From NCBI GenBank assembly GCA_005792285.1, contig SXSI01000026.1, forward strand, positions 1-34,312: DNA of 34,312 nucleotides, read 5' to 3'. Positions 1 through 16,270 of the stretch are shown in pieces. Numbering within the stretch: position 1 is the first letter of the stretch; each line of letters starts with the position of its first letter. The position numbers were made by a program, and so were the translations under genes. The notes under the pieces were generated by a model that worked only from the letters and a program-made list of their open reading frames with translations, made no database searches and was not told the DNA's origin. Origin of the DNA: Bacteroidota bacterium. Lineage in GTDB: Bacteria > Bacteroidota > Ignavibacteria > UBA10030 > UBA8401.

Positions 1-58
1 AAAAGAAGTAAACAAACTAAAATCAAAATCTGAAAAAGATTATTCATCAAAGGAGTAA
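1..58 (+). CDS. 3' end of an S74-type fibre paralogue (partial)
   Basis: Codons starting at base 2 read [18 protein letters not shown] and then stop at 56-58. This is almost the same as the last 18 residues of the protein at 107-1486, which ends [18 protein letters not shown]. The rest of the gene lies left of the window. The segment would be the end of the C-terminal coiled coil that follows an S74 (endosialidase chaperone) domain. It shows that the locus holds at least two tandem copies of this fibre gene. The reading frame is open to the stop, so this copy may be intact, but only 19 codons are visible. Confidence 0.7.
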   Translation, partial: KEVNKLKSKSEKDYSSKE

Positions 59-80
59 CAAATGTAAAACACAATATTAA
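59..80 (+). pseudogene. relic of the start of a type IX cargo gene
   Basis: Bases 59-80 match bases 1487-1508, the junction between the S74 fibre gene and its downstream partner, with only a few differences. In this copy the ATG at 62-64 is followed directly by TAA, so the partner gene cannot be translated from it. The similarity fades after about base 80. This looks like the remnant of a duplicated two-gene unit whose second gene was lost. Confidence 0.5.
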
Positions 81-95
81 TTAATAATTTAACCC

Positions 96-102
96 AAGGA
101 GG
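96..102 (+). promoter_or_regulatory. strong Shine-Dalgarno site for the S74 fibre gene
   Basis: AAGGAGG stands four bases before the ATG at 107. It fixes the start and shows that this organism uses Shine-Dalgarno initiation, which is rare among typical Bacteroidota. Confidence 0.7.
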
Positions 103-106
103 ATTT

Positions 107-1486
107 ATGTATAGATTCATATTTGTATTTTTATTTTTAATAAATATTTCTTTTTCTCAAGTTGGCATAGGTACAACAACTCCAGCTTCTACATCGCTAC
201 TTGATGTAACCAGTACAACAAAAGGAGTTCTTGTGCCAAGAATGACAGCAACTCAAAAAGATGCAATTAGTTCACCTGCAACAGGTTTATTAATTTACCA
301 AACAGATGGAACATCAGGATTTTATTATTACACAGGTAGTGCGTGGATTTTACTTACGAATAATTTAACAACAAAAGTTGGTGGCACATATTTTACAAAT
401 AGTTTTTTGTTAGGTCACAACACAACCGGGACGCTACATTCAAGTGGTGCAGATTATAATATTGGTGTCGGAATTGGCTCACTGCAATCTATTACGTCTG
501 GTGACAGTAATACTGCTATTGGATATAATTCATTATACTCTAATACTCAAGGGTTTTCCAATATTGCATTAGGATCTGAAGCAATGAGATCGAATACTTC
601 AGGTGAATATAATGTAGCTTTAGGTCATCAGGCACTTTATCAAAACAGCACAACTAAATATAATGTTGCTATTGGCTTTCGAGCAATTAAGAATAACACA
701 GCAAATTCTAATAATATTGCAATTGGAAAAAATTCAATGTATAACAGTAGTAACACTACAAATTCAATTGGTATAGGAGAAAATGCATTTTATAATTCTA
801 GTGGTGGAACCACAAATATTGGAATTGGACCAAGTACACTTTATAACAATACTTCAGGTCAAATTAATATTGCAATTGGCCAAAACGCAATGAATGCAAA
901 TACTACTGGAGTTGAAAATATTGCATTGGGTTCTTATTCTTTAAGTGCTAATACAACAGGATCTAGAAACCTTGCATTAGGACATAATGCAGGTAATCAG
1001 ATTACATCGGGCTCATTCAATATTTGTATTGGTGAATACGCAAATCCTAGTAGTGCTACAGCAAGTAATGAAGTTACAATATCTGGAGATACATACAGAA
1101 TGTTTGGTAGTTGGACAAATGTATCAGATCTGAAAATTAAACATGCAATCAAAAATATACCTATTGGTCTTAATTTTATTAATAAATTAAGACCTGTTGA
1201 ATTTATTTATAACAGATCTAAAACTAAAGAAAAGACATTTGGATTTATTGCTCAAGAAGTTAAAAAAGTTGTTGAAGAAAATAAGTTGGTAAATTATGAT
1301 TTAGTAACAAATATGGATAAAGATCATTTGGGATTAAATACAACAGAAATAATACCAATTTTGGTAAAAGCAATACAAGAGCAACAAGAACAAATGCAAA
1401 AGCAGGAAGTAATTATTTCAAAATTGGAAAAGAAAATAAACAAACTTGAATCAAAATCTGAAAAAGATTATTCATCAAAGGAGTAA
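107..1486 (+). CDS. secreted YadA-head-like fibre with S74 chaperone domain
   Basis: Predicted exported trimeric fibre of 459 residues. Residues 1-17 form a signal peptide ending FSFSQ-like at ISFSQ. Residues 18-85 are a module common in Bacteroidota surface proteins (VGIGTTTP, then GLLIYQTDG and YYYTGSAW). Residues about 110-325 hold about twelve repeats of 21-23 residues with the core IAIG/IALG followed by a hydrophobic pair, as in YadA-like head repeats. Residues about 338-435 are an S74 intramolecular chaperone domain with SDLKIK (S340, K345; the Ser-Lys pair of the family), a LRPVEF motif and GFIAQEV. A coiled coil closes the protein. In the S74 family this domain drives trimer folding and then cuts itself off; that this happens here is inferred. 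The gene lies 3 nt upstream of the next one. Ligand and cell-surface anchor are unknown. Confidence 0.85.
1477..1483 (+). promoter_or_regulatory. Shine-Dalgarno site inside the previous gene
   Basis: AAAGGAG overlaps the last codons of the fibre gene and lies six bases before the ATG at 1490. This couples translation of the two genes. The same arrangement is seen in the decayed copy at the left edge of the window. Confidence 0.6.
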
Positions 1487-1489
1487 CAA

Positions 1490-2527
1490 ATGAAAAACAT
1501 AATATTATATTTTATATTTTTAATTGCATTAAATTTAAATGCACAAGTATTTACTATTCCCAGCGGAACGAATTTATTTATTACAGCCAATACAACATTT
1601 AACGCACTTAATTTAACGATAGTTCCATCATCAGATTTTACATTATCTAATTTAAGTTTATCAAAAAATACAACTGTTACAAACTCAACCTCTGGAACTT
1701 ATGTCGCAAGAGTTTATCAATTCTCTCCAACCACAAATGCTTTTAGTGGAACAATACAAGTAAATTACGAAGATGCTGAACTAAGTGGATTAACCGAATC
1801 AACCTTGCAGGTTAATTATCATGATGGGACTGCATGGTATCCAATTACAAGCACAACAAATGAAACAACAAGTAATTATGTTGTAAGTAATTCAATTTCG
1901 AGTAAAACAATAAATGAAATTTCTTTGGCAGGATCGGTTGCACCACTACCAGTGGAATTAACCAATTTTAAAGTAAACATTTTTAATGGAGATGTGGTAT
2001 TAACATGGGAAACAATAACCGAGACAAACAATTATGGATTTGATATTGAGAAAAAAATAATTCAAGGGAATGATAATAGTATAAATAATTGGACAAAGAT
2101 AGGATTTGTAAAAGGAAATGGAACAAGCAACATAATTCGAAATTATAAATTTACAGATAATGGAATAAGAAAAGGAAGATACTCATACAGATTAAAACAA
2201 ATAGATAGAGATGGAAAGTTTGAGTATAACAAAGAGGAAGAAATAACATTAGGATTAAACCCAAACAAAATAGTAATAGATGGAAACTATCCAAATCCAT
2301 TTAACAATGAGACAGTGATTAGTTTTCAATTACCAGTTAGTGGAGTTGCAAATATAAAATTATATAATTTAACCGGAAAAGAAGTTGTAGAGATATTAAA
2401 CAAACCAATGGAGGCAGGATTCCACGAAGTTAGATTTAACTTTGGAAGTTTACCAAGTGGAGTTTATTATTACAAAATCATCCAAAACGATAAATCGGAA
2501 TTTAAAAAGTTGCTATTTTTGAAATAA
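1490..2527 (+). CDS. secreted protein with type IX (Por) sorting domain
   Basis: A 345-residue exported protein. Residues 1-18 form a signal peptide (ending LNLNAQ). Residues about 20-150 are Thr/Ser/Asn-rich beta-type sequence of unknown fold. From about residue 153 the motif LPVELTNFKV followed by LTWETITETNNYGFDIE marks the fibronectin-III-like stretch that often precedes sorting domains in this lineage. From about residue 262 to the end, GNYPNPFNNET, LYNLTGKEV and LPSGVYYYKI form a type A Por secretion C-terminal domain. In known systems this domain directs passage through the PorT/Sov outer-membrane machinery and attachment to the surface. The gene sits 3 nt after the S74 fibre gene, so the two products may act together at the surface; this is inference. 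The cargo part has no recognised function. Confidence 0.85.
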   Translation: MKNIILYFIFLIALNLNAQVFTIPSGTNLFITANTTFNALNLTIVPSSDFTLSNLSLSKNTTVTNSTSGTYVARVYQFSPTTNAFSGTIQVNYEDAELSGLTESTLQVNYHDGTAWYPITSTTNETTSNYVVSNSISSKTINEISLAGSVAPLPVELTNFKVNIFNGDVVLTWETITETNNYGFDIEKKIIQGNDNSINNWTKIGFVKGNGTSNIIRNYKFTDNGIRKGRYSYRLKQIDRDGKFEYNKEEEITLGLNPNKIVIDGNYPNPFNNETVISFQLPVSGVANIKLYNLTGKEVVEILNKPMEAGFHEVRFNFGSLPSGVYYYKIIQNDKSEFKKLLFLK

Positions 2528-2552
2528 AAAATAAAATTAAATACCCACTTTT

Positions 2553-2594
2553 ACTTGACAATAGGCACAAATTTATTTACTCTTAGGTCAAGTC
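2553..2594 (+). promoter_or_regulatory. candidate promoter framed by a 7-bp inverted repeat
   Basis: TTGACA at 2555-2560 and TACTCT at 2578-2583 are 17 bp apart, a sigma-70-like spacing with a weak -10. ACTTGAC at 2553-2559 and GTCAAGT at 2588-2594 form an inverted repeat around them. It could serve the gene at 2635. The -10 match is only 3 of 6, so this is tentative. Confidence 0.3.
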
Positions 2595-2634
2595 ACACCT
2601 TTAAAAAAATTGTTATTCAAACAAAAAAAGATTT

Positions 2635-4740
2635 ATGAAAAAAACATTTTTACTATTTTTCTTTTTAACAAACATTGCATTTTCTCAAGTTGGCATAGGT
2701 ACAACAACTCCAGCTGCTACATCGCTACTTGATGTAACCAGTACAACAAAAGGATTTCTTGTGCCAAGAATGACTACAACTCAAAAAGATGCAATAAGTT
2801 CACCTGCAACCGGTTTATTAATTTACCAAACCGATGGAACTGCGGGGTTTTATTATTACACAGGCAGTGCTTGGATATTGATTACTACAGAACTAATATC
2901 TAAAACCGAAGGAACTGATTTTACTGGAGGCTTGCTGGTAGGGCACAAAACTACAGGAACTTTGAGTGCTGCAACTTACAATACAGGCGTTGGGATAGGT
3001 GCATTGAGTTCAATTACAAGCGGAGACTACAATACAGCAAGTGGCTATCAGGCATTTATTTCCAACACCACAGGAAGTAACAACACTGCAATAGGTGTCG
3101 CTGCTATAGATAGAAATACTGCAGGTAATTACAATGCAGTTCTTGGTGCTTTTTCAGGAAGATATATTGCCGATAATGCAACATATAATACAGCAATTAA
3201 TAATTCCGTTTTAGTTGGAGCATTATCTAGGCCATTAGCAAATGATGCAGTTAATGAAATTGTTATCGGGTATAACGCAATTGGAAATGGGTCAAATACT
3301 GTAACACTTGGCAATAGTAGTATAACAAATGTAAAAACCAGCGGTACTATTACGGCTGGTGCAGTAACTTATCCAAATTCACATGGGACCGCTAATCAAG
3401 TATTGAGCACCACAGGTAGCGGAACTTTAACTTGGACTACACCCGCAGCTGGTGGAGCAGTAGCTGCGAATGAACTAACTGGCACAACCTTAACATCAAC
3501 AGTAACAGGGTCTAGTTTAACAAGTGTAGGTACTTTGGCAAACTTAACGGTAACCAATCCTATAGTTGGTAGTGTGTCTGGTAATGCTGGAACAGTAACC
3601 ACGAATGCGAACTTAACAGGCCCTGTTACCAGTGTAGGGAATACTACGGCTATAGCAGATGGTGCTTTATCGATTGCTAAGACGAGTGGGTTGCAAACGG
3701 CCTTAGATGCAAAAGCACCTTTAGCAAGTCCAACATTTACCGGAGTACCGCTAGCACCTACCGCTACTGCAGGAAACAATACAACACAAGTTGCAACAAC
3801 TGCGTTTGTTACTAATGCGGTTACCTCTGGTAGTGCTACTAATGTTACGGGCGTAGTTGTTGGCGCTAATGGAGGTACTGGAGTGGCTAATACGGGTAAA
3901 ACGATCACCTTAGGGGGCAATTTAACTACGTCTGGAGATTTTGCCACTACGTTAATATCAACTGCTACCACTTCAGTTACCTTACCTACTACTGGAACCC
4001 TGTCTACGTTGGGTGGGACAGAGACACTAACTAGTAAAACATTAACGAGTCCAGTACTTACGACACCTGCTTTAGGCACTCCTGCTTCAGGTGTTGCAAC
4101 AAATCTAACTGGGCTTCCATTAACAACCGGTGTTACTGGCACATTAGCTGTTGCCAATGGTGGGACAGGTTTAACCGCAGTGGGAACGAGTGGTCAGGTA
4201 TTGTCCACCAATTCCGGTGGAACTTTAACTTGGACCACACCCTCAGCTGGAGCAGTCACGCATACTATTGGAGAATCTTATGGTGGAGGTATAGTATTTT
4301 ATGTCTATGACAATGGTAAACATGGTTTAATTGCAGCAACATCAGATCAAAAAGCCGATCCCGGAAGGAGGTGGTATGGTGGTACATATGTAAATACAAG
4401 AGCAAGAGCAGATGGGGTTGGCGCAGGAATAAAAAATACTGCAATAATTATTGCAAATCAAGGAGTAGTAGATGGCGAAACTTTTGCTGCAACGATTTGT
4501 AATGAGTATTCTGTAACTGTTAATGGAGTAACTTACGGTGATTGGTACTTACCTTCAAAGCATGAACTTAATTTACTTTATTTACAAAAGAGTATCGTTG
4601 GCGGTTTTGCGAATTACCCCTATTGGAGTTCTACGGAGTACAGCTATGTAGAGGCAAATGCTCAGGATTTCACCCAAGGCACTACTAGCCTCCCCGGTAA
4701 GAACAGCCCCTACCATGTTCGCGCCATTAGGGCTTTTTAA
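2635..4740 (+). CDS. chimeric tail-fibre-like protein with C-type-lectin-like variable C-terminus (candidate DGR target)
   Basis: A 701-residue exported protein. Residues 1-18 are a signal peptide. Residues 19-85 are nearly identical to the fibre at 107, also in DNA. Residues about 115-235 hold degenerate YadA-like repeats. Residues about 250-540 resemble phage tail-fibre sequence: [16 protein letters not shown]-type, [16 protein letters not shown], and two copies of a [13 protein letters not shown] motif near residues 253 and 520. Residues about 543-701 form an Lcl/DUF1566-type C-type-lectin-like domain: [19 protein letters not shown], then [20 protein letters not shown] and the end YHVRAIRAF. 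That fold and ending are typical of DGR target proteins. Residues 662-693 carry the codon pattern expected of a mutated template. The likely role is diversified ligand binding at the surface. Function is inferred; the family also occurs without DGRs. Confidence 0.8.
4618..4740 (+). other. candidate DGR variable region (VR)
   Basis: The stretch covers codons 662-701 and the stop of the gene at 2635. Bases 4621-4740 are 59/120 G+C (49%), far above the AT-rich surroundings. Between E668 and H694, 12 of 26 codons end in C, and all three Ser codons are AGC, both Pro codons CCC and the one Leu codon CTC, although this genome prefers codons ending in A or T. AGC, CCC, CTC, TAC and AAC can all come from AAC by changes only at adenines, and GGT, ACT and TAT from AAT. 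The segment then ends in an unvaried-looking GC-rich tract (about 4713-4733), where an initiation-of-mutagenic-homology site would sit. No template repeat was found in the window. Confidence 0.6.
4705..4738 (+). terminator. weak terminator-like hairpin overlapping the stop codon
   Basis: AGCCCCTA (4705-4712) can pair with TAGGGCT (4728-4734) with one bulged C, around a 15-base loop, and is followed by a run of T at 4734-4738. It could end transcription, but it lies inside the coding end whose sequence is constrained by the VRAIRAF-like motif, so it may be chance. Confidence 0.25.
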
Positions 4741-4764
4741 CTATTTAACTATTTTACAATTTAC

Positions 4765-4792
4765 TTGTCCCCCCGACCATTCGGGGGGACAA
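4765..4792. other. perfect 12-bp GC-rich hairpin/cruciform after the VR
   Basis: The arms TTGTCCCCCCGA (4765-4776) and TCGGGGGGACAA (4781-4792) pair without mismatch around the 4-base loop CCAT. It starts 24 bases after the stop codon. Neither strand has a T-run after the stem, so it is not a normal Rho-independent terminator. DGR targets such as that of phage BPP-1 have a short GC-rich hairpin with a 4-base loop just downstream of the VR, where it helps target recognition. The loop here does not match the GRNA-type loops reported for those elements. Confidence 0.7.
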
Positions 4793-5061
4793 AAATATAG
4801 AAAATACAAAATGGTATTTTAACTTCCACAGTAGTAAACATTTTACACGAATTAGCAATTTTAATAATACAAAACAATACCACTTATCTGGGGGGGTAAT
4901 TTGATAAAACACCTAATTAATTAACCTCTAATAGCGGCTTTTGTAGTATCTCTTTTTGTGGATGTTTAGTAACATAACATGAAGAAAAAAGAAAATTACT
5001 AAAATACATACCATCCAACAGTAGAAGAAATAGTAGTTTTGATTTTAAAAATAAATATTCG
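4793..5061. other. gene-free stretch, no clear content
   Basis: AT-rich DNA without a supported gene. It contains a run of seven G at 4890-4896 and a short ATG-started frame at 4979-5002 that stops after seven codons. No reverse transcriptase, template repeat or RNA gene could be seen here. Confidence 0.4.
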
Positions 5062-5133
5062 CAGCAAATTCAATCTGAACTAAAAGACGAAGTAAGTAAA
5101 CTGAAATTAAGATCTGAAAAAAATATACTTTGA
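5062..5133 (+). pseudogene. relic of an S74 fibre coiled-coil tail
   Basis: The frame from 5062 reads QQIQSELKDEVSKLKLRSEK and then NIL and stop. It aligns with the ends of the fibre at 107-1486 ([10 protein letters not shown]) and of the partial copy at the left edge (EVNKLKSKSEK). No start and no S74 domain precede it. It looks like the left-over tail of a third fibre copy, perhaps the original 3' end of the gene now ending at 4740. The match is short. Confidence 0.45.
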
Positions 5134-5159
5134 AGGAATAAAAAATCAAAATTAAATAT

Positions 5160-5181
5160 AAAAAAAGCCACGAGAAGTGGC
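5160..5181 (-). terminator. Rho-independent terminator of the S46/BNR operon
   Basis: Read on the - strand, GCCAC (5181-5177) pairs with GTGGC (5171-5167) around a 5-base loop and is followed by seven T (5166-5160). It lies about 33 bases after the S46 peptidase stop. On the + strand the stem is followed by CTTTTAATTT, so weak activity from the other side is possible. Confidence 0.7.
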
Positions 5182-5214
5182 CTTTTAATTTATTAAAGAT
5201 AGTTTATTAAATTA

Positions 5215-7269
5215 TTATCCTTCGATCTCGCTCACTAATTCTTTAGCATCGTAAATATTTTTTAGGGCTTCCATCATTCCACCTGTATGAACCGAAACCG
5301 CTCGGTTTGCAAAATCGTCGTAAACAAATCTTCCAACTAAACTTTCAATATTTCCATCGAAAATTAATCCAACAATTTCGCCGTTTGCGTTAATAACAGG
5401 CGAGCCGGAATTGCCACCAATAATATCGCACGATGAGACAAAATTTAATGGTGCATAAGGATTGATTTTATTTTTCTTATCCCAATAATTTTTTGGAAGT
5501 TCGAAATCACCTTTATTATCAAATTCCATAGCGCGTGTAAATAATCCACCGTAAACAGTTTTATACGGTGCAATTGTTCCATTCATCGGATAACCTTTAA
5601 CAGAACCATAAGCAAGTCGTAATGTAAAAGTTGCATCGGGAGATTTATCGCTTCCATAAACTGCAAAAAGAGCTTTGCCAATTTTTTCACCAGATGGCGT
5701 TACAACACTCGAAATATTTTCTTCTTGCCAAGTTATCATTTCGCGACTCATTGCGTCGTACTCGCGCATTAAAACAATCATCGGATCGGTTGATTTATTT
5801 AGTGCACTAATTCCGCCATCAGAAAGTTTTTTTCTAAAATCAGGATTTATTAATTCCGAAGTTGAAAGAGCTTTTGCAGTTTGCTCAATTGATTTATTTT
5901 TTAGCACCATTTTTACAAATTGATCATTTTCTCCGAGTACTGAAATAATTTCATTTAATCTTGCCGAGATTACAAATTCTTCCATATCTGAATAAATTGG
6001 TGCAGGACTGAAGAGTTGCATTTTTAAAGATGCAAGTTGTGCTTCATGGTAACCATCAAATCGTTTGGAATCTTCTTTTGCAGTTTCATTTATATATCTA
6101 ACTAATGTTAAACCACGAGATGCAAGTGTTGAACCGGCGAGAGATCGATAAAAAAGTTCATTATATCTGGAAATTAATTTTTTATAAGCAATTTCAATAT
6201 CGCTCCAAGAAGAAGAATATTTTGAATTCAACTCGCTTTGTAGTGATAATCTGCTTCGTAATTCATTTTCTTCTTTTTGTTTAGTTGCGGTAATTGCCGG
6301 ATTTTTTAAACCATCATATTCTCCAATTGAGGCCTTTAAAGAATTTTCTAAACTAAAAATTTGTTCCTTTGCTTTTCTTGCATTTTCCGGATTTAATACT
6401 GAGAATTTTTTTAAGGCTGCAATTCTTACTTTAAAAGTTTTTAATCTTGCAGGATAACTATAATCTCTGTTAAAATTAAATTGCGCCATTGTTTGTAATC
6501 TATTTGTTGAACCGGGATGACCGCTAACAAATACAAGTTCATTCTCACTTGCGCCAGCACTATTCCATTTTAAAAAATTAGTCGATTGAAGTGGTTTATC
6601 GTTTTCATAAATTCTAAAAATTGTCATGTCCAAATCATATCTTGGGAAAGTAAAATTATCTGGATCACCACCGTAAAATGCAATTTGTTGCTCGGGGGCA
6701 AAAACCAAACGGACATCGGTATATTTTTTGTAACGATAAATCCAATATTCGCCACCATTATAAAGAGTTACAATATCAGATCGAAGTTTAGTTTTTTCTG
6801 TACTTTCTTTTTCAAGTGAAGCAAATATTTTTTTCCGTGCTTCAAGTGCATCTTTGGGATTCATATCGCTTTTAACTGTAGAATTAATTTTAGCGGTTAC
6901 ATTTTCCATTGAGATTAAAACATTTAATTCTAAATCGGTGCATTTAATTTCTTTAGAATTCGAGTTTGCATAAAATCCAACTTTCACATAATCAATTTCA
7001 GGTGATGACATTTTTTGTAATTGTCCCAATGCAACATGATGATTTGTTAAAACTAATCCGGTTGAGCTAATAAAAGATCCACTTCCGCCATCGTTAAAGC
7101 GAACTGAAGAAAGTTGAATTTTTTCCAACCATTCTTTAGTTGGTGTAAAATTATATCTCTCTTTTAATAATTTATAAGGTGGATTGTTGAAAGTCCACAT
7201 TCCTTCATCACCAAAGAGTGATGTTATTGAAATTGTAAAAATAATTACAAGAAGTTTTATTTGTTTCAT
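5215..7269 (-). CDS. S46 family dipeptidyl-peptidase (DPP7-like)
   Basis: Serine exopeptidase of 684 residues that should release dipeptides from the N-terminus of peptides in the periplasm or at the surface. Residues 1-20 form a signal peptide. The mature start DEGMWTFNNPP is typical of the family. The catalytic triad can be read as H78 (TNHHVA), D214 (PRYDLDMTIFR) and S621 (GGNSGSP). Eighteen residues after the serine stands G639 (IFDGN). In this family Gly at that place goes with a preference for hydrophobic P1 residues (DPP7), Arg with acidic ones (DPP11), so a DPP7-like specificity is inferred. Length is usual for S46. The ATG overlaps the TGA of the BNR gene by 4 nt, which implies coupled translation. 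It is the last gene of the operon. Confidence 0.9.
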   Translation of the reverse strand: MKQIKLLVIIFTISITSLFGDEGMWTFNNPPYKLLKERYNFTPTKEWLEKIQLSSVRFNDGGSGSFISSTGLVLTNHHVALGQLQKMSSPEIDYVKVGFYANSNSKEIKCTDLELNVLISMENVTAKINSTVKSDMNPKDALEARKKIFASLEKESTEKTKLRSDIVTLYNGGEYWIYRYKKYTDVRLVFAPEQQIAFYGGDPDNFTFPRYDLDMTIFRIYENDKPLQSTNFLKWNSAGASENELVFVSGHPGSTNRLQTMAQFNFNRDYSYPARLKTFKVRIAALKKFSVLNPENARKAKEQIFSLENSLKASIGEYDGLKNPAITATKQKEENELRSRLSLQSELNSKYSSSWSDIEIAYKKLISRYNELFYRSLAGSTLASRGLTLVRYINETAKEDSKRFDGYHEAQLASLKMQLFSPAPIYSDMEEFVISARLNEIISVLGENDQFVKMVLKNKSIEQTAKALSTSELINPDFRKKLSDGGISALNKSTDPMIVLMREYDAMSREMITWQEENISSVVTPSGEKIGKALFAVYGSDKSPDATFTLRLAYGSVKGYPMNGTIAPYKTVYGGLFTRAMEFDNKGDFELPKNYWDKKNKINPYAPLNFVSSCDIIGGNSGSPVINANGEIVGLIFDGNIESLVGRFVYDDFANRAVSVHTGGMMEALKNIYDAKELVSEIEG

Positions 7270-10200
7270 TTTGTTTCCTTTTTTAATCCGATTAATGGTA
7301 AAGATTTTTCGTGAATCATTGAATTTAATTTTGCGACATCTTCATTTAAAATAATTTTTAATTTACCAAGTTCTGTATCAACTGATTGTGCAAGTTCCTG
7401 ATACGCATCATAAACTTGTTTTGCTGGTGCAGTATAACCAGTAGCAGCTGCATCATAAACTCCGGACAATTTATCATCTAATCTTATGGGGAAGTTCAGT
7501 ACATCTTGTCCACTTTTAGCTTTTGTTTGATGAAGTGCTTCTTCAACTAAAGTTATTTGTTTATTAATTGTATCGACTTGTTGCTTAATTTCTTTTGGTA
7601 AATCTTTTCCAACTCTTGCTTCAAAATCAGTTAATTGTTGTCGAACATCACGAATATTTTTTATTCCTTTAATTATTTCAGAAAATTTATCTCTTGCAGT
7701 TAAAAGGAAATTAAATTGTTCGTCGTATTCAGTTTGAGTTGTTTTGTAATTTGGATCGGATAGTATTGTAAAAGAAGTTTCAGATGAGTCTTTATCTAAT
7801 TTAAATTTTGCGGTATAATTTCCCGGAGATGCTTTTGGACCACCAATTGATCCGTTCCAAATTATTAATCCTTCAAGTTTTTCTGCTTCCGGATAATTCA
7901 TATCCCAAACAAATTGATTCATTCCTTTTGAAATATCAAGTTTATTTTCTTTTGAAGAAGTTGAAAAAGTTTTTATAGATTTTTTATTTTTGTCGAAAAT
8001 TTCAACTGAAAGTTTAGTTGAGTCGTCAACATTCTTCAGAAAATAATTTAGTATAACTCCATTTGGTGGATTTGTGCCGACATTTTTTAAGTTGATATTG
8101 AAATTTCCAAATCTGCCACCCATTCCCATCATTCTGTAAGATGGATTTACATCAAAAAGAAAAAGATTTTTATTCACGATATCTGCATTTTTATTTTGAA
8201 CAACAGTTAAATCGTCGAGGATGTAAATACTTCTGCCTTGAGTTCCGACAATGAGATCATTGTTTTTAATTGCAAGATCGGTAATTGGTACTATTGGTAA
8301 ATTAAGTTGAAATGATTTCCAGTTTTCGCCGTTGTCGTAAGAAATATACATTCCATATTCAGTACCTGCATAAAGAAGTCCGGCTTTTTTATGATCTGCG
8401 CGTAACGCTCTTGTAAAATGTAATTTATTAATTCCATTATCAATTCGATCCCAATTTTTACCGTAATCATCTGTTTTATAAATGTATGGTGAAAAGTCAT
8501 CGAGTTTGTATCTTGTTCCAACAAAATATGCAGTTCCTTTTTTAAAAGGATCAACTTCAACACAATTCCACATCATAAATTTTGGAAGATCTTTTGGAGT
8601 TACATTTACCCAATTTTTTCCACCATCTTTACTTACATGAATTAACCCATCATCACTTCCACTCCATAATAAATCTTTTTCAAGTTGACTCTCTGTTGCA
8701 GTAAAAATTGTACAATAATATTCTACCGAAGTATTATCTTTTGTAATTGGTCCGCCACTTGATGCTTGTTTTGATTTATCGTTTGTAGTTAAATCGGGAC
8801 TGATTGATTCCCAACTTTTCCCTTCATTTTCAGAAACAAATAAATGGTTTCCGGCAGCATATAATTTTTTTGGATTATGCGGTGAAAAGAAAATAGGGAA
8901 GTTCCATTGAAATCTATATTTAGCAGCTTCAGCTCCGGCTCCCATATTATCAATTGGCCAAACATTTATTTGGCGAAGTTCGCCAGTTTTATGATCGAGG
9001 CGTTGCAAAGTTCCCATGTAATTTCCGCCATAAGTTATTTCAGGATTAGTTGGATCAGCGACAACATACCCACTTTCATTTCCAGCAGTAATATCCATGT
9101 CTTGCATTGTTATCGATGAACCATAAGTTCTGCTTTTAATTCTGAAAGCAGAATTATCTTGTTGGCCACCCATTACACGATACGGGAATGCATTATCTGT
9201 ACTCACACGATAAATTTGAACTGTTGGTTGATTTAAATAAGTACTCCAATTTTTTCCGGCATCAAAAGAAATTTGTGCACCACCATCATCAGCAACAATC
9301 ATTCTATTTCCATCTTCAGGGTCAATCCATAAATCATGATGATCACCATGTGGAGTTTGCAAACTTTGAAAAGTTTTTCCTGCATCGTTACTGTACATAA
9401 AACCAACATTCGGGCAATAAACTTTATTTTCATTTTTTGGATCGACAAAAACTTTTGTATAATACCAAGCACGTTGACGAATATTATTATCGTTTCCGGC
9501 GAGAGTCCAAGTTTCTCCAGCATCTGAACTCATGTACAAACCACCATCTTTATTTTCAATTATAGAATAAATTTTTTCTGAATTTGAAGGAGCAACTGCA
9601 ACACCAACAATTCCCCAAATTCCTTTTGGTAATCCTTTTTTTGTGGAAATATTTGTCCAAGTTTCTCCGCCATCTATACTTTTATATAATCCACTTCCAT
9701 CGCCGCCACTTTCGAGACTGTAAGGAGTTCTAATTAATCTCCACATTCCGGCATAAAAAACATTTGGATTTCCTGGCTCCATAACTAAATCACTACAACC
9801 AGTTTGATTATTTACGAATAAAGTTTTTTCCCAAGTTTTTCCGCCATTTGTGGTTTTAAAAATTCCGCGTTCTTCATTTGGACCAAATAAATGTCCCATC
9901 GCTGCCACCCAAACTACATCTGGATTTTTCGGGTGAATAATAATTCTCAAAATATGTCGGGTATCTTTTAGTCCAAGATTTTTCCAAGTTTTTCCGCCAT
10001 CATCAGTTCTCCAAATTCCGCCGAGACCTTCGCTAACATTTCCTCGCATTGTATTTTCCCCTTCGCCGACGTAAAGAATTGTCTCATCACTTGGTGCAAT
10101 TGCAACTGCGCCAATTGAACCACCGAAAAATTTATCGGAAATATTTAACCAATTACTTCCGCCATCTGTAGTTTTCCAAACACCACCACCAGTTGCGCCA

Positions 10201-10424
10201 AAATAAAATGTATTTTTATTTTTGTAACTGCCAACTGCGGCTGCACTTCTACCACCACGAAATGGGCCAATTAAACGATATTTTGTTTTAGAAAATAATT
10301 GCTCATCAACACTTTTAGTTAGTTTTGATGTTTGTCCGATTATAAAGTTTTGGTTAAAACTTAAAATTAAACAGAGACAAATAACTAAAACTTTAGTTGA
10401 ATTAAGTTTGAAGATGTTAATCAT
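7266..10424 (-). CDS. secreted BNR/Asp-box propeller protein (sortilin-VPS10-like)
   Basis: A 1052-residue exported protein. Residues about 1-30 form a signal peptide. The first ~700 residues carry at least ten Asp-box-type repeats, such as TTDGGSNW, TDDGGKTW, TTNGGKTW, SIDGGETW, SSDAGETW, SNDAGKTF, SKDGGKNW and SYDNGENW, which build one or two large beta-propellers as in sortilin/VPS10 and sialidase-like folds. RNTMRGN-like and ILDDLTVVQ segments are common in bacterial members. A beta-type domain (about 750-880) and a helical C-terminus follow. Such proteins are often labelled glycosyl hydrolase, but no catalytic set of a sialidase was identified, so enzyme activity is not claimed. AGGAG lies 6 bases before the ATG. 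The 4-nt overlap with the S46 peptidase suggests that both act on exported or environmental proteins. Confidence 0.85.
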   Translation of the reverse strand: MINIFKLNSTKVLVICLCLILSFNQNFIIGQTSKLTKSVDEQLFSKTKYRLIGPFRGGRSAAAVGSYKNKNTFYFGATGGGVWKTTDGGSNWLNISDKFFGGSIGAVAIAPSDETILYVGEGENTMRGNVSEGLGGIWRTDDGGKTWKNLGLKDTRHILRIIIHPKNPDVVWVAAMGHLFGPNEERGIFKTTNGGKTWEKTLFVNNQTGCSDLVMEPGNPNVFYAGMWRLIRTPYSLESGGDGSGLYKSIDGGETWTNISTKKGLPKGIWGIVGVAVAPSNSEKIYSIIENKDGGLYMSSDAGETWTLAGNDNNIRQRAWYYTKVFVDPKNENKVYCPNVGFMYSNDAGKTFQSLQTPHGDHHDLWIDPEDGNRMIVADDGGAQISFDAGKNWSTYLNQPTVQIYRVSTDNAFPYRVMGGQQDNSAFRIKSRTYGSSITMQDMDITAGNESGYVVADPTNPEITYGGNYMGTLQRLDHKTGELRQINVWPIDNMGAGAEAAKYRFQWNFPIFFSPHNPKKLYAAGNHLFVSENEGKSWESISPDLTTNDKSKQASSGGPITKDNTSVEYYCTIFTATESQLEKDLLWSGSDDGLIHVSKDGGKNWVNVTPKDLPKFMMWNCVEVDPFKKGTAYFVGTRYKLDDFSPYIYKTDDYGKNWDRIDNGINKLHFTRALRADHKKAGLLYAGTEYGMYISYDNGENWKSFQLNLPIVPITDLAIKNNDLIVGTQGRSIYILDDLTVVQNKNADIVNKNLFLFDVNPSYRMMGMGGRFGNFNINLKNVGTNPPNGVILNYFLKNVDDSTKLSVEIFDKNKKSIKTFSTSSKENKLDISKGMNQFVWDMNYPEAEKLEGLIIWNGSIGGPKASPGNYTAKFKLDKDSSETSFTILSDPNYKTTQTEYDEQFNFLLTARDKFSEIIKGIKNIRDVRQQLTDFEARVGKDLPKEIKQQVDTINKQITLVEEALHQTKAKSGQDVLNFPIRLDDKLSGVYDAAATGYTAPAKQVYDAYQELAQSVDTELGKLKIILNEDVAKLNSMIHEKSLPLIGLKKETK

Positions 10425-10446
10425 TGTAGCTCCTTTTAAAAATTAA

Positions 10447-12144
10447 TTATTTCATTCGTTGGCCTTGTTCCTCAGTCGAGAAAATCCAGCCAACAAGTTT
10501 TCCGGGTTCAATTGATTGAAGATTATTCCAATATTCCTTGTCGTAAAAGTGACGTGAACTTGTTTCGTTTTTATTTAATTTTGCAACATTGTTTTTCAAA
10601 GTATTAAATCGTGCAATCCATTTTTTAATATTACTTTCTCTCAAATCAACCCAACCACTTTCTGCCCAAACATCAATATTTTTGTTTGTAATCTTAATTT
10701 CATTTTCTCCTTGAAATGGAGGAATTTTAATTGTTTCGCCTCTTACTAATCTTTTTCCATCGGGTAATAAAATTGGAATTCCAATTGAAATAATTTGTGA
10801 ACGCAAGTTTATATTTGTTGAAATATATTGTAAAAGTTTGGCAGAAATATTTTTTGGATTTTCTGAAATTACATTTTCGAAAGATACATAATTAATTTTT
10901 AAAAGGAATGCTTCATATAAAAGTTTAGAAAGGCGAGGAGGACCAAGCATTTCGAAAGCAACACTTTCTACATTGTTCAACTTTTCAAGCTTCTTCATTT
11001 TCTGTAAAGCTTTATCAAACATAAATCCTGCGCGATAAGTTGGTTCGAGAGTTGCATTATCGAGTGCATTAATAATATCTCGGCCAGTATTTCCACCTTT
11101 TATTTCATAAACAACGCTATCTGCAATTTCTTCCGGAGTAATAAATTCCATTTGTCCGGGAGTTGCAATTGCTTCAAATTCACCACGTGAAAAAATTCCA
11201 TTTTCACCAGTATTAATAAAAACTGATTTTAAATTTTTCTTCAAATTATTTATTTTTAAAGATTTATCTTTTAAGAGTAGTGAGTTTGTTAGTTCAACGG
11301 TTTCATTAATTGGAAGATCAACTAACGGAATTGATTTTCCTTTTTTCTTAATTTCTCCAAAACCAATTTGTTTCCACGCAATTGCGCCAGTTGGTTTTAT
11401 TTCTTTTGTAATTGGTGCGTCGGGAGTTCTTCCCATTAAAAAAAGTAAAAGTGTATGCGCTCCTGCAACTGCAGATTTACTAAGTAAAACTCTCGAAGGA
11501 CGTTCCTCACTATGCGTGTATGGAATATTCAAACCCATTCCACCGGTTCCGCTAGTTCCAATTTTTAAATATACTTTAGTATTTAAATGGTTCATTGAAC
11601 GATAAAATAATTGAACATGCCTTATAACTTGTGGGATGTATAAAGTTGCGAGTAAAAGTTCGGAAGTATTTCGAAGTTGTTCGAATGATTTATTGTTAAT
11701 TGCATGCCTAACAGCTCTTGCTGATTGGAAAATATCTTGATATGCAATTGCAGTTGCTGAATTAACACAATCGATTATAACATCGGGTTTATGTAGTGAA
11801 AGTAGATTAAAGATGGAAGAAGATTTCAACAAATCAGTTGTGAGTTCGTCAAGAATGTCACTAATAAAAACATTTCTATTTTTTTGATTTGCGAAAATTT
11901 GCTTTTTACTTAAATCTTTAAATTTATTTCGATGGAAAATATTTCCCCACCATGGAATAAAATAATTTTTTGGAAGTGACGGGAATTCAGCTTGAAAATC
12001 TTTTACAGCTTTGATTGCTTCTTTTTTAAGAAGGGAAGTTATAATTATTTGTTTTGGTTTTTCTTCTATTAATTTTCTGCAAACGGCAGAGCCAACTAAG
12101 CCCCATCCACCGAGTATGAGAACTTTTTTATTTTTAATATCCAT
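10447..12144 (-). CDS. Rossmann-fold SDR/epimerase-like protein
   Basis: A 565-residue protein with no signal peptide, so probably cytoplasmic. The N-terminus KVLILGGWGLVGSAVCRKL is a GxxGxxG dinucleotide-binding loop, best matched by the extended SDR or saccharopine-dehydrogenase-like groups. DVIIDCVNSATAIAYQD near residue 130 fits the end of the fourth strand of such a fold. KIGTSGTGGMGLNIPYTHSEERPS near residue 195 is conserved-looking, and the C-terminal ~300 residues are unusual for an SDR and not recognised. The protein is about twice the usual SDR length. It lies 8 nt after the barrel gene and 22 nt before the BNR gene, thus within the same operon. Substrate and pathway are unknown; why it is coupled to secreted proteins is unclear. 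Confidence 0.65.
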   Translation of the reverse strand: MDIKNKKVLILGGWGLVGSAVCRKLIEEKPKQIIITSLLKKEAIKAVKDFQAEFPSLPKNYFIPWWGNIFHRNKFKDLSKKQIFANQKNRNVFISDILDELTTDLLKSSSIFNLLSLHKPDVIIDCVNSATAIAYQDIFQSARAVRHAINNKSFEQLRNTSELLLATLYIPQVIRHVQLFYRSMNHLNTKVYLKIGTSGTGGMGLNIPYTHSEERPSRVLLSKSAVAGAHTLLLFLMGRTPDAPITKEIKPTGAIAWKQIGFGEIKKKGKSIPLVDLPINETVELTNSLLLKDKSLKINNLKKNLKSVFINTGENGIFSRGEFEAIATPGQMEFITPEEIADSVVYEIKGGNTGRDIINALDNATLEPTYRAGFMFDKALQKMKKLEKLNNVESVAFEMLGPPRLSKLLYEAFLLKINYVSFENVISENPKNISAKLLQYISTNINLRSQIISIGIPILLPDGKRLVRGETIKIPPFQGENEIKITNKNIDVWAESGWVDLRESNIKKWIARFNTLKNNVAKLNKNETSSRHFYDKEYWNNLQSIEPGKLVGWIFSTEEQGQRMK

Positions 12145-12152
12145 TTAGCAAT

Positions 12153-13139
12153 TTATAACAGATACATCAAAGAAGTTAATATTCTTAAGTTCTCATCCGA
12201 TTGTGTCCCGTTTAAATTTTTATAAATCGGAAATTGTCCATTAACTTCAAAGATTATATTTTCATAAACCAAAAATGAAGTTCCAACAACTCCAAAAATA
12301 TATGTGCCACCGGAATCTTCTATTTTGATATTATTATATTTTTCAATTCCAATGTTTTTTCCAAGGAAGCCCATATTAGTTGTAATAAAACTTTCAGAAG
12401 AAAGAAAAGTAGGTTTAAATTGATGTCGATAAATTAAGTCGTATGTAATTCCAAGACCTTCTTGATATTTATTTTTTGAGTTTAACGGTTTGCCAATCAT
12501 AATACTTGCAGTTACAGAACGATTCTCTTCACTTAAAAATCCATTAACATTAAATAATAAAGTAGAAGTTCCGGTTCCATTTTGTAAATGAGGATGTAAT
12601 AAATATTTAAATTCGTCGCGCGAATCTATCGAGCCAGTCGGAATTGTTGAACCAGCTTGAATATTTACTTTATAGAATAATGAAGACATCTCTTGCAAAA
12701 TTGTATAACGAGCCAAAATTACCATATCGCCAATTCCATTTGAAGAATATTTTTCTATGTAAGAATCAGTTAAATTATTTGTACCGGCAAGTTCCGATCT
12801 ATCTCCATGATGAAAATGAAGAAAACTCGAAGCATCCAATGTAAATTTATTTTCCTGAATTTTACTTGTAAATGGAACAGTTGCAGAAATTCCAAATTGT
12901 TGGAAAGAATAATTGTATGTAAGATAGGAAGTTGAGTATGATGCTTTTAAATTATCTCGCGACTGTATTGGATTTGAACCACGAATTAATCCATCAAATT
13001 GTTGAAATCGAAAATCAATCCGAATACTTGATTGATTTTCACTTGAGTAATATTGTTGTAATCCAACTACACAATAGTCGCATGGAAAAAGTGGATTTAT
13101 AAACAGAAAGGTCAAAATAATTAATTGTTTAAGTTTCAT
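12153..13139 (-). CDS. predicted outer-membrane beta-barrel protein
   Basis: A 328-residue exported protein. The ATG at 13139 gives a clean signal peptide (KLKQLIILTFLFINPLFPC); a TTG at 13175 in the same frame would add 12 residues ahead of it and is less likely. The mature part starts with CDYC, a CxxC pair of unknown meaning. The remainder alternates polar and apolar residues in short strands with loops (SIRIDFRFQQF, TYNYSFQQFGISATVPF, AGSTIPTGS), as in Gram-negative barrel proteins that carry small organic solutes or have no known role. GSTIPTGS is a common turn of such barrels. It is the first gene of the operon with the SDR-like, BNR and S46 genes. Function is not known. Confidence 0.6.
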   Translation of the reverse strand: MKLKQLIILTFLFINPLFPCDYCVVGLQQYYSSENQSSIRIDFRFQQFDGLIRGSNPIQSRDNLKASYSTSYLTYNYSFQQFGISATVPFTSKIQENKFTLDASSFLHFHHGDRSELAGTNNLTDSYIEKYSSNGIGDMVILARYTILQEMSSLFYKVNIQAGSTIPTGSIDSRDEFKYLLHPHLQNGTGTSTLLFNVNGFLSEENRSVTASIMIGKPLNSKNKYQEGLGITYDLIYRHQFKPTFLSSESFITTNMGFLGKNIGIEKYNNIKIEDSGGTYIFGVVGTSFLVYENIIFEVNGQFPIYKNLNGTQSDENLRILTSLMYLL

Positions 13140-13226
13140 AAGTTCGAAAATACCTTGCAAAAAATGTAGAAGCAAGATAAAGAATATTATTTTTAGTCTA
13201 TAATATCTTATATTTATAATACTTTT
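13140..13226. promoter_or_regulatory. divergent promoter region
   Basis: This gap separates the - strand operon from the + strand haem-lipoprotein gene. On the + strand TATAAT occurs at 13199-13204 and again at 13215-13220; the second is only six bases before the ATG at 13227, so it would give an almost leaderless transcript. No convincing -35 was found for either. Both operons must be transcribed from here. Confidence 0.35.
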
Positions 13227-14981
13227 ATGAAGTACTCACCCTCACAATTTATTTTTTATTTATCTCTTTTATTTTGCAATTCCTGCAGTCAAAATAATCC
13301 TATTGATATAAATTGTGATGAAACAAAAGATTTAGAATATATTTATGTCGTTAACGGAAATGCTTCGGCAACAATAGTTTGGAGTGGATCAGAAGTATTT
13401 AATCAATATTCAATTTATCGGGATACAATTCAAAATGTTCGAATTCAAAATTCTACATTCAGAAAATCATTTCAGTCAATATTGCGTGGTGGTTTTGTAG
13501 ATACTCCATTAGTAGATGGAAGAGATTATTATTATAAAATTCTTCTTGAAAAAAATTGCAACAACGAACAAAGTAATATTATTTCATCTTTAGTTGCTGA
13601 AGCTCGTCCAAATAATTATAAAATAATTGATTCTTCTTCAGTTACTTTTTCAAATCATATTAAACCAATTTTAAATAGCAGTTGTGGAGTTAGTGGTTGT
13701 CACAGTTCATCTGAGGAATCTTCTTTTTCAAATTGGAATGATTTAATGAAAGAAGATAATGGTGTCTCATGGGTAATTCCTTTTAAGTCAACTAAAAGTC
13801 ATCTCGTTTATCATTTGAATATTGATTCGACGGTTGCTCCAATTTCAAAACCAACAATGCCTTCTGCAGAAATTCAGTTACCAAAAGAACAGATAAAAGT
13901 TTTAATGAATTGGATTGATAAAGGTGCGAAAGATGAAAATGGAAATATTCCTTTTACAGAAATTCCGAGTGAAGGAATTGCAATTGTTACAAATCAAGGT
14001 GAAGATTTAGCGGCAATAATTGATCTCTCTTTAAAAAGAGTAACTCGATTTATTACAACTGGAGTTTTAGATACAAAATTACAACCACCACTTGCACCAC
14101 ATAATGTTACGATTGATAGCAAAAATCAATTTTATTATGTGAACTTAATTTCCGGAAATAAAATTTTAAAATTTAATATTTCTGATAATAAAAAAGTGGC
14201 TGAATTGAGTTCTGGAATTATTTCTCCATCGCAAGTTGCGTTATCAATTACAAACGATACCGGCTACGTTGCAAATTTCAGTTCATCGCAAACCGGGATT
14301 TCTACAATTAATACAAAGACGATGAGTTTAATCGGAAATTTTTTAGATCCCAGAATGATTGCTCCTCATGGAATTTCGATAACGCCAAATGGTAAATATG
14401 CAATTTCTGCAAATCAATTTTCGGACAATATTACTTTAATAGATTGTGATCAGCAAACAATTCTGGATGTAATTCCATTATCGGCAAAAGTTTCTTCGCC
14501 ACCGACTGCTTCGAAAAATTTCGAACCATATCAATCTGTAATTACAAAAGATAGCAAGTTTGCATTTATTACCTGTGCGCAGTCGAATGAAGTGCGTGTT
14601 TTAGATATTAATCAGCGAAAAATTGTTGATTCGATAAATGTTGGTTTACGGCCGTTAATTCTCGATATAACTCCAAATGGGGAATATATTTATGTCGCGA
14701 ATAGAAATTCCAATTCGGTTTCTGTAATAAATGTAAGTCAACGGAAAGTTGTTTCAACAATTCAAAATGTTGGTCAACAACCACATGGAATTGCAATTTC
14801 AAAAAATGGAAATATTGCGGTAGTTTCATGCGAAAATTTATTAACTTCTGAAGCGCCACATCATCCGACTACTGGAAGTAAAAATATTGGAATTGTAATA
14901 TTGATTAATACTTCAACAAATAGTATAATTAAGAAAATAGAAGTTGGAAATTTTGCTGCAGGAGTTGCAGTGTCACATTAA
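13227..14981 (+). CDS. lipoprotein with CX4CH haem motif and YVTN-type beta-propeller
   Basis: A 584-residue exported protein. The N-terminus FIFYLSLLFCNSCSQNN has a lipoprotein-like end (Cys at residue 20 or nearby). Residues about 35-125 look like a fibronectin-III domain. Residues about 140-245 form a cytochrome-like unit: C153 and C158-H159 (CGVSGCH, spacing CX4CH instead of CXXCH), a possible axial Met in TMPSAE, and VLMNWIDKGA, which is usual in such units. Residues about 250-584 are a seven-bladed propeller of YVTN type, with repeats such as GEYIYVANRNSNSVSVINV. Similar proteins take part in electron transfer or in sensing at the envelope; which one is unknown. The CX4CH spacing is known from some multihaem cytochromes, but haem binding here is unproven. 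The gene is divergent from the barrel operon and 12 nt upstream of thyA. Confidence 0.7.
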   Translation: MKYSPSQFIFYLSLLFCNSCSQNNPIDINCDETKDLEYIYVVNGNASATIVWSGSEVFNQYSIYRDTIQNVRIQNSTFRKSFQSILRGGFVDTPLVDGRDYYYKILLEKNCNNEQSNIISSLVAEARPNNYKIIDSSSVTFSNHIKPILNSSCGVSGCHSSSEESSFSNWNDLMKEDNGVSWVIPFKSTKSHLVYHLNIDSTVAPISKPTMPSAEIQLPKEQIKVLMNWIDKGAKDENGNIPFTEIPSEGIAIVTNQGEDLAAIIDLSLKRVTRFITTGVLDTKLQPPLAPHNVTIDSKNQFYYVNLISGNKILKFNISDNKKVAELSSGIISPSQVALSITNDTGYVANFSSSQTGISTINTKTMSLIGNFLDPRMIAPHGISITPNGKYAISANQFSDNITLIDCDQQTILDVIPLSAKVSSPPTASKNFEPYQSVITKDSKFAFITCAQSNEVRVLDINQRKIVDSINVGLRPLILDITPNGEYIYVANRNSNSVSVINVSQRKVVSTIQNVGQQPHGIAISKNGNIAVVSCENLLTSEAPHHPTTGSKNIGIVILINTSTNSIIKKIEVGNFAAGVAVSH

Positions 14982-14993
14982 AATAAAAGTTTT

Positions 14994-15806
14994 ATGATTG
15001 AATATTTAGATTTAGTTGATCGTGTTTTAACAAAGGGTGTTAGAAAAACAAACAGAACCGGAATGAATACCATTTCCTGTTTTTCGGAACATTATAAAAT
15101 TGATTTGAGTGAAGGCTATCCACTTTGCACAACAAAGAAAATGAATTTCAAATCTATGTTGTACGAAGTTTTGTGGTATTTATCGGGAGATGATCATATT
15201 AGAAATCTGCGCAAGCATACAAAAATTTGGGATGCGTGGGCAGATGAAAATGGAAATCTCGACACAGCTTATGGAAGATATTGGAGAAAATTTCCGAGTG
15301 CGCAAATAAATCCTGCAACAGGAAAATATGAAGTTGTAGAATTTGATCAGATTGCTGAAATTATTAAACTTTTAAAAACGCAACCGAATTCGAGAAGAAT
15401 GGTTGTTTCAGCATGGGAACCGGGAAATGCGCATAATAGTAAACTGCCACCATGTCATTATACTTTTGCATTTAATGTAATTGGAGAAAATTTAAATTGT
15501 CATCTCACTCAACGCTCGGGTGATATTGCGCTCGGGATTCCATTTAATATTGCAGCGTATTCATTGCTTACACAAATTATTGCAAACGAAGTTGGAATGA
15601 AATCCGGATATTTTAGTCACACAATTATAGATGCACATATTTATTTAAATCATGTTGATGGATTGAAAGAGCAATTAAAAAGAAAACCAAAACCAAGACC
15701 GAAATTAGAAATTCTTAAAAAACCAATTGACCAATTACAGTTTGAAGATTTTAATTTAATTGGTTACGAAAGTTGTGAGTCAATAAAATTTGAGGTTGCG
15801 GTTTGA
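14994..15806 (+). CDS. thyA: thymidylate synthase
   Basis: Converts dUMP to dTMP with methylene-tetrahydrofolate, in the cytoplasm. The 270 residues match the family length (264 in E. coli). Visible motifs are NRTG near the N-terminus (phosphate-binding Arg), the YEVLWYLSGD stretch, the PPCHY motif with the nucleophile C154, HLTQRSGDIALGIPFNI, and the end FEVAV close to the usual KAPVAV-like C-terminus that closes over the active site. The gene follows the haem-lipoprotein by 12 nt and overlaps folA by 4 nt. The pairing with dihydrofolate reductase, which recycles the dihydrofolate it makes, is a standard arrangement. Confidence 0.97.
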   Translation: MIEYLDLVDRVLTKGVRKTNRTGMNTISCFSEHYKIDLSEGYPLCTTKKMNFKSMLYEVLWYLSGDDHIRNLRKHTKIWDAWADENGNLDTAYGRYWRKFPSAQINPATGKYEVVEFDQIAEIIKLLKTQPNSRRMVVSAWEPGNAHNSKLPPCHYTFAFNVIGENLNCHLTQRSGDIALGIPFNIAAYSLLTQIIANEVGMKSGYFSHTIIDAHIYLNHVDGLKEQLKRKPKPRPKLEILKKPIDQLQFEDFNLIGYESCESIKFEVAV

Positions 15807-16270
15807 AGTTGTATATAATTGCTGCTCTGAATAGTAAAAGAGTAATTGGTAAAGATGGAAAACTTCCTTGGCACATTTCAGAGGATTTAAAAAGATTTAA
15901 GAAGCTAACAACAGGCAATACAATTTTAATGGGAAGAAAAACTTTTGATTCACTTGGCAAAAAACTACCCGACAGAAAAAATATTGTTATCTCTTCAAAA
16001 AAAATTGATGATGTAGAAACTTATAGTTCTATTGATGAAGCACTTGAAATTTTAAAAAACGAAGAGAAAGTTTTTATAATTGGTGGTGGCGAAATTTTTC
16101 AGCAAACTATAAATCGAGTTGATGGTTTATTTCTAACTTTAGTTGAAAATGAAACTGATGGTGATATATTTTTTCCACCTTACGAACATTTGATTGAAAT
16201 TTTATATCATCTTGAAGAAGAAGAAATTCATGATGGCTTTATTTTTAAAAACTACTTAAGAAACAATTAA
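15803..16270 (+). CDS. folA: dihydrofolate reductase
   Basis: Reduces dihydrofolate to tetrahydrofolate with NADPH. The 155-residue protein has the family signature: LYIIAALN at the start, VIGKDGKLPWHISEDLKRFKK with the acidic active-site residue D28, GRKTFDSLGKKLPDRKNIV for NADPH binding, and VFIIGGGEIFQQ. The start is a TTG at 15803 whose last two bases open the TGA of thyA (TTGA overlap). A GAGG at 15792-15795 gives a ribosome site at the right distance, and no ATG lies in a sensible place. The end overlaps the stop of the convergent gene by 3 nt, leaving no room for a terminator. Confidence 0.95.
   Translation: MKLYIIAALNSKRVIGKDGKLPWHISEDLKRFKKLTTGNTILMGRKTFDSLGKKLPDRKNIVISSKKIDDVETYSSIDEALEILKNEEKVFIIGGGEIFQQTINRVDGLFLTLVENETDGDIFFPPYEHLIEILYHLEEEEIHDGFIFKNYLRNN

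Follow-up and report, generated by a model that had tools for sequence, protein, structure and literature searches.

A perfect GC-rich hairpin behind the variable region of an Lcl_C gene, a probable orphan target site of a Bacteroidota-type DGR

The stretch of DNA analysed here (the window, 34,312 nucleotides in full) holds a perfect inverted repeat just past the end of an Lcl_C gene, and this repeat is very probably the target-site hairpin of a DGR of the Bacteroidota type, in which variable region (VR), hairpin, avd, template repeat (TR) and reverse transcriptase (RT) follow one another, present here as an orphan target. The reading is supported by the position of the hairpin, its context and its homology to complete DGRs, as judged from the sequences compared. 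An earlier note on this DNA had already proposed a DGR target hairpin, and our analysis adds to that proposal its orphan status, as neither RT nor TR is found in the assembly. The features concerned are listed below, where L033 is a locus of the isolate Aquirufa antheringensis, L035 a locus of a Bacteroidetes genome bin, and L058 another locus with a comparable VR.

2635 to 4740, forward strand: target gene, 701 aa, with a C-terminal Lcl_C (DUF1566) domain and an N-terminal part resembling the gene at 107-1486
4621 to 4737, forward strand: VR by homology, from a gapless alignment with the VRs of L033, L035 and L058
4717 to 4737, forward strand: IMH-like conserved 3' end of the VR, GTTCGCGCCATTAGGGCTTTT, identical in L033, L035 and L058
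4741 to 4764, forward strand: AT-rich spacer from stop codon to hairpin, aligning with the same stretch of L035
4765 to 4776 and 4781 to 4792, no strand assigned: arms TTGTCCCCCCGA and TCGGGGGGACAA of the hairpin or cruciform, with loop CCAT at 4777 to 4780, from fold and shuffle scores and pairing
4793 to 4810, forward strand: post-hairpin segment, up to the lost start of avd, from alignment with the L035 segment
4811 to 4821, forward strand: avd-start remnant, ATGGTATTTTA against ATGGCATTATA in L035, with a stop at codon 4

The two arms form 12 perfect pairs, eight of them G-C, around a loop that reads CCAT, or ATGG from the opposite strand, and the hairpin begins 24 nt after the stop codon (TAA, 4738-4740) and 27 nt after the VR. 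Its GC content is 64%, against 31.5% for the window. Folded as DNA, the 81-nt stretch around it reaches -17.9 kcal/mol, compared with -6.1 +/- 2.1 for shuffled sequences (z -5.6), with none of 200 dinucleotide shuffles as good, and in the 110 nt 3' of the stop codon shuffles never equal the hairpin score (p=0.005 with 200 shuffles, p=0.002 with 500). The perfect 12-bp stem, the CCAT loop and the 24-nt distance given in the earlier note are exact to the letter. AT-rich stretches resembling the spacer come after many other targets.

The C-terminal ~210 aa of the 701-aa protein are 68-69% identical to the proteins of L033 and L035, and Pfam places Lcl_C at residues 632-699 (E 8.4e-6), with a score of 26.5 bits, short of the curated threshold of 34.9. 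Among DGR targets, the commonest Pfam domain is reported to be DUF1566 (PMC6642488). With the gene at 107-1486, the N-terminal part shares a 300-nt repeat at 83% and a protein identity of 64%, and the target gene looks like the start of a local surface protein fused to a foreign end. It is the last 117 nt of the gene that match the variable regions of L033, L035 and L058, and their final 21 nt that are the same in all four. A search for the IMH pattern itself gave 18 genomes out of 396 in the order to which the genome of L035 (G062) belongs, and 3 out of 98 in the order of the window.

The VR also stands apart from the domain just upstream in its codons, with G or C at the third position in 21 of 39 against 16 of 100 (p=2.5e-5). 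Among the VRs of L033, L035 and L058, each pair differs at 23 to 26 first and second positions and at one or two third positions, a bias that fits templates rich in AAC codons, as expected. For the VR of the window the trend is less clean, with 27 differences at first and second positions against nine at third positions when compared with L033, and 33 against nine with L035, while the domain upstream shows an ordinary pattern (22 against 26, and 24 against 23, respectively); this contrast between VR and upstream domain gives a Fisher p of 0.008 with L033 and with L035 alike. Against the VRs of L033, L035 and L058, the VR of the window carries nine third-position differences over 31 codons, so that it either came from another template or has drifted since. 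Set beside the non-cognate template of L072, it is equal at 17 of 40 template-A positions and at 25 of 41 other positions.

A separate observation concerns L033 and L035 themselves, which form a clear hypervariation contrast: in the Lcl_C domain upstream of the VR (L033 6001-6351, L035 1234-1584) 15 of 351 nt differ, two of them at third positions, whereas 28 of 93 scored positions differ in the VR. RT was matched in neither genome.

The homology extends beyond the gene. A blastn search aligned window positions 4621-4815 with L035 (G062:C8) at 78% identity (E 2e-17), and the match covers the VR end, the spacer and the post-hairpin segment, through to the avd start. Aligned pairwise, the two loci are almost the same on either side of the hairpin and differ in the stem, which nevertheless pairs in both. 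The next gene of L035 begins as avd (MALYYELPVYRDVYKL...); we take its product to be the DGR accessory protein from its place between VR and TR/RT in complete cassettes. At the window locus an intact avd is absent: the start codon alone survives (ATG at 4811, 18 nt after the hairpin), with a stop three codons on, at codon 4.

Using the Avd of L035 as a query against 395 Bacteroidota genomes, we obtained matches at 25 places in 22 genomes, several of which are complete cassettes with VR, hairpin, avd, template repeat and an RT bearing the YVDD motif; the complete Bacteroidota DGRs are L068, L069, L071-L073, L075, L076, L078, L079 and L087. Comparison of template repeat with VR gave 88 matches, 16 mismatches at template A and one other in L072, and 84, 20 and one in L078. 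Differences at template adenines make up 15 of 17 in L073, 20 of 22 in L075, 17 of 19 in L076 and 12 of 15 in L083, with a less clean share in L071 (19 of 25) and L089 (17 of 26); these A-specific counts leave out L068, L069, L079, L080 and L087, where the VR end was misplaced, and the template alignment is still visible for L068, L069, L079 and L087. Four further loci (L066, L067, L077, L084) have a VR, a hairpin and a shortened avd frame or match, with no TR or RT motif within the fetched stretch.

To score hairpins in the corresponding place, we took the 65 nt that precede the avd start and compared the best perfect hairpin there with dinucleotide shuffles, at 24 of 26 avd loci (L074, at a contig edge, and L085, where the avd start was not recognised, being left out). 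A hairpin at p<0.05 precedes avd in 20 of 23 distinct segments, six of them at p<0.01; many of these loci are close relatives and thus not independent, and they include 18 distinct hairpins. An RT motif lies downstream at 10 of the 24 loci, and nine of those ten pass the hairpin test, L076 having a shortened stem with p=0.076. Where the test is passed, 15-25 nt separate the end of the stem from the avd start. Stems of at least six pairs with at least five GC pairs were found at 19 of 24 avd loci, against 2 of 56 control gene 3' flanks, one of the two being that of L035's own target. The earlier note had held that recurrence behind many unrelated genes would speak for an ordinary terminator. 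Besides these control flanks, the pattern CCCCCCGANNNNTCGGGGGG, with up to three mismatches allowed, occurs at a single place in the whole genome bin (1.68 Mb, 50 contigs).

The hairpins of this Bacteroidota group keep their place and vary in their letters. Stem pairs change on both sides across loci, as at the third pair from the loop, where six classes have C-G and four have G-C. The pair types were read directly off ten hairpins, each standing for a class and chosen for pairing, and so show change without testing it; a MAFFT alignment of the hairpin regions was set aside for these counts because it misplaced the stem of the window. The loops read GTG, TTA, CCA, TTTT, AAC, AGC, AGG, GAA, TTT, CTTT, TCT and GTA, none of them GRNA and with no GRNA consensus, in a group that includes cassettes that look intact. 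The earlier note's description of the window hairpin as a variant thus stands in part: its stem is longer than 8 bp and its loop is not GRNA, but the loop is no local oddity. Across the loops compared, the non-GRNA loop is not peculiar to the window, and the Bacteroidota variety would be a loop-relaxed one.

In BPP-1, the structure of the stem is needed and its sequence is not, the loop matters, and moving the IMH together with the hairpin is enough to send the machinery to a different gene (PMC3240598). As described there, BPP-1 has a GC-rich inverted repeat downstream of VR and IMH at the end of the variable gene, as here; the stem is likewise kept as a structure, and the distance falls within the reported 4-34 bp. 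The window differs in its 12-bp stem (8 bp in BPP-1, 7-10 bp in the phage set of that study), in its CCAT loop in place of GRNA, and in having no RT, TR or intact avd; by the measures of the phage type (BPP-1 class), then, it has neither the loop nor the stem length. It does have what marks a target hairpin, namely an inverted repeat past the VR, a stem conserved in structure (with L033 as the exception) and an IMH-bearing VR recognised by homology. Nanoarchaeal DGR hairpins, as reported in PMC4372165, are also short inverted repeats after the VR whose loop rule departs from that of BPP-1; they lie inside the target gene and have a constrained GRA trinucleotide loop, whereas the hairpins here are intergenic and their loops vary by locus, the GAA of L073 fitting the archaeal form. 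In layout and spacing (VR, stop, AT-rich spacer, GC-rich hairpin, avd start) the window is like the complete Bacteroidota DGRs, in which avd, TR and RT are retained and the stems have five to nine perfect pairs, whereas the window holds the target half with a longer stem. Treponema denticola isolates are described with remnant or remote target genes and with genomes lacking RT and TR (PMC4891356), a similar situation in another phylum, in a paper whose main text contains neither the word hairpin nor inverted repeat.

In a working system, an error-prone RT together with Avd would copy the template repeat with changes at adenines, the cDNA would replace the VR with which the Lcl_C gene ends, and the GC-rich inverted repeat 3' of the IMH would extrude as a hairpin or cruciform and help the cDNA into the target. 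Extrusion and this help to the cDNA are established for BPP-1; for the window we infer them, and with them a role of the hairpin in homing, by analogy. A 2026 reconstitution in E. coli found that deletion of the inverted repeat impairs repair severely, though not completely, and its authors propose that the repeat keeps the target open for cDNA (PMC12875486).

A search with PF00078 found no RT in the window's own genome and matched 3 of 14 control genomes, and the DGR RT of L069, used as a query, gave matches in 17 of 28 genomes and none in this one. No template repeat or second copy of the VR was found in the genome bin, the best other matches being of 17-22 nt (E 0.11), nor was a second target found in the assembled genome. 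With RT, TR and a second target all absent from the assembly, we class the site as an orphan target, either a remnant or one served in trans; at the locus itself an intact avd is missing as well. In the same-genus genome G001, matches to RT and VR are absent, and the S46 peptidase beside the locus has no match there. The Aquirufa genome has the target and no RT match. In the viral_contigs set, two pattern scans returned 4 and 15 loci, some with VR-like ends, and motif scans of the stretches fetched for these gave no RT, loose RT-motif flags on two small ORFs of L062 and L064 being taken as chance. No Lcl_C relatives were found in the same set, and the avd query matched there at one locus (L090), where no VR-hairpin could be recognised ahead of avd. 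Phage records gave no match to the search for a cognate TR or RT, and two Leuconostoc plasmid records (31 nt, E 4e-3) were taken as chance.

Most likely, the orphan site is a remnant left after loss of the cassette. It could instead be a remote target that is still active, with RT, Avd and TR lying in the unassembled 4-5% of the genome or on a plasmid or phage and diversifying the VR in trans; such remote and trans targets are reported (PMC4891356, PMC10907252), the stem is perfect across all 12 bp, and G432 offers a case of a complete cassette (L087/L092) together with a solo target with truncated avd (L067). We regard this as possible but unlikely, given that TR and RT are missing from a bin called 95.6% complete, that G001 has none either, and that no phage record and no relevant plasmid record came up. 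A more speculative idea, and one we hold to be doubtful, is that VR, spacer and hairpin form a minimal RT-free target cassette that travels among Bacteroidota and their relatives, becomes fused to local surface-protein genes, and is kept since DGRs arriving on other elements diversify it in trans. If this were so, the perfect stem, found as it is in a genome that has no RT, would represent no fossil but a docking site that is being kept. The remnant reading remains the preferred one for the orphan site.

As for what the hairpin is, its GC-rich stem soon after a stop codon would suit an intrinsic terminator of the Lcl_C gene, and terminator-like hairpins do occur further downstream of some related targets (L126 and L112, for example). 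No T-run follows it on either strand, however, and a terminator scan of window positions 1-17000 lists 12 other sites and not this one, both in agreement with the earlier note, which had argued that it does not read as a terminator. Further, its homologues lie inside complete DGRs, between target and avd and in the same reading direction, mostly with an A-rich stretch next, and the stem sequence is unique in the genome. We therefore reject the terminator reading, on the missing T-run and the homology to hairpins within DGR operons, and consider it highly improbable for the window; at L116, L083 and L089, where T-rich stretches come after hairpins in the same place, attenuation may occur. Slightly less improbable, though still very unlikely, is that the hairpin acts on RNA, for instance on avd translation or mRNA stability, its form as DNA being irrelevant. 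In complete cassettes it would indeed be carried on the mRNA, between target and avd, but the stem is perfect here despite the lost avd, and the BPP-1 experiments point to a DNA hairpin whose stem works independently of sequence (PMC3240598). A known RNA family was likewise rejected, since Rfam gave no match over 4500-5300 up to E=1. Finally, the genome bin consists of many contigs and the stem has six-base runs of C and G, which might suggest a chance inverted repeat or an assembly artefact; with no shuffle equal to the hairpin, and with homologous flanks carrying hairpins at equal distance, we give this next to no credence.

Related targets do not all carry such a structure. Cassette-type targets typically have the hairpin, whereas scattered ones often lack it. 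Among sites chosen by the IMH pattern alone, drawn from the 18 and 3 genomes given above, 11 of 33 have a hairpin at p<0.05; the window and L035 are among these 11, and several of them resemble terminators. The earlier note had suggested comparing the 3' flanks of other genes ending in Lcl/DUF1566, where a conserved stem with a changing sequence would support a role, and the outcome is mixed: the stem of L035 differs yet pairs, while that of L033 is broken by one mismatch (flank p=0.56), and no hairpin was seen at the corresponding place in the others of the 11 Lcl_C-domain loci in genome_contigs. For L034, L043 and L042's own flank this was judged from the printed sequence alone; shuffle scoring was without a gene end for L029-L032, L034 and L043, and the end scored for L042 belongs to an unmatched gene. 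Closer to the window, the Lcl_C gene of G038, of the same order, is followed by a spacer that begins identically and then by a different, very stable long stem (-55.8 kcal/mol with RNA parameters; p=0.078 on the perfect-stem score alone). L030 of G017, in the same family, has CCATCCGC-TGCA-GCGGATGG about ten bases 3' of the stop, seen by eye and unscored. No hairpin was found in G018 (L135), and the two loci of G002 fell outside the scoring.

These data test by comparison a feature that is known chiefly from a single phage: in a group of chromosomal Bacteroidota DGRs the place and pairing of the hairpin are kept while stem and loop sequences vary, against the loop rule of BPP-1. In the parts consulted of the literature on DGR hairpins, remote or orphan targets and DUF1566, we came upon no survey of the loops of Bacteroidota hairpins; PMC3240598 mentions unpublished hairpin predictions for most chromosomal and plasmid DGRs. 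They also show target sites without machinery, which would escape surveys anchored on RT, and PMC8144416 states that its own approach would not detect remote targets.

Several smaller observations belong with these sites. G730 and G657 (L106, L114, L123, L126-L132) have several IMH-bearing targets, with six sites in G730 and four in G657, and some G730 targets have a short CCGC-type hairpin followed by a separate terminator-like stem common to targets. Two phage contigs, L141 (about 3565-3584) and L146 (about 1195-1214), have a VR-like gene end with the window's IMH (TATGTTCGCGCCATTAGGGCTTTT), with no stop directly after, no evident hairpin, and no RT motif in the fetched stretch. In the window, a run of seven G at about 4889-4897, ~100 nt 3' of the hairpin, stands unexplained in very AT-rich surroundings; a similar GGGGGTAC stretch comes directly before the hairpin in complete DGRs. 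A 79-nt repeat is present in three copies (1-79, 1429-1507 and 5085-5163, the latter two 91% and 61% identical to the first) and joins the tail of an S74-type protein gene to the beginning of the gene that follows. The third copy falls in a non-coding stretch downstream of the hairpin and appears to be what is left of one more gene of this kind, so that the locus may be a decaying tandem array.
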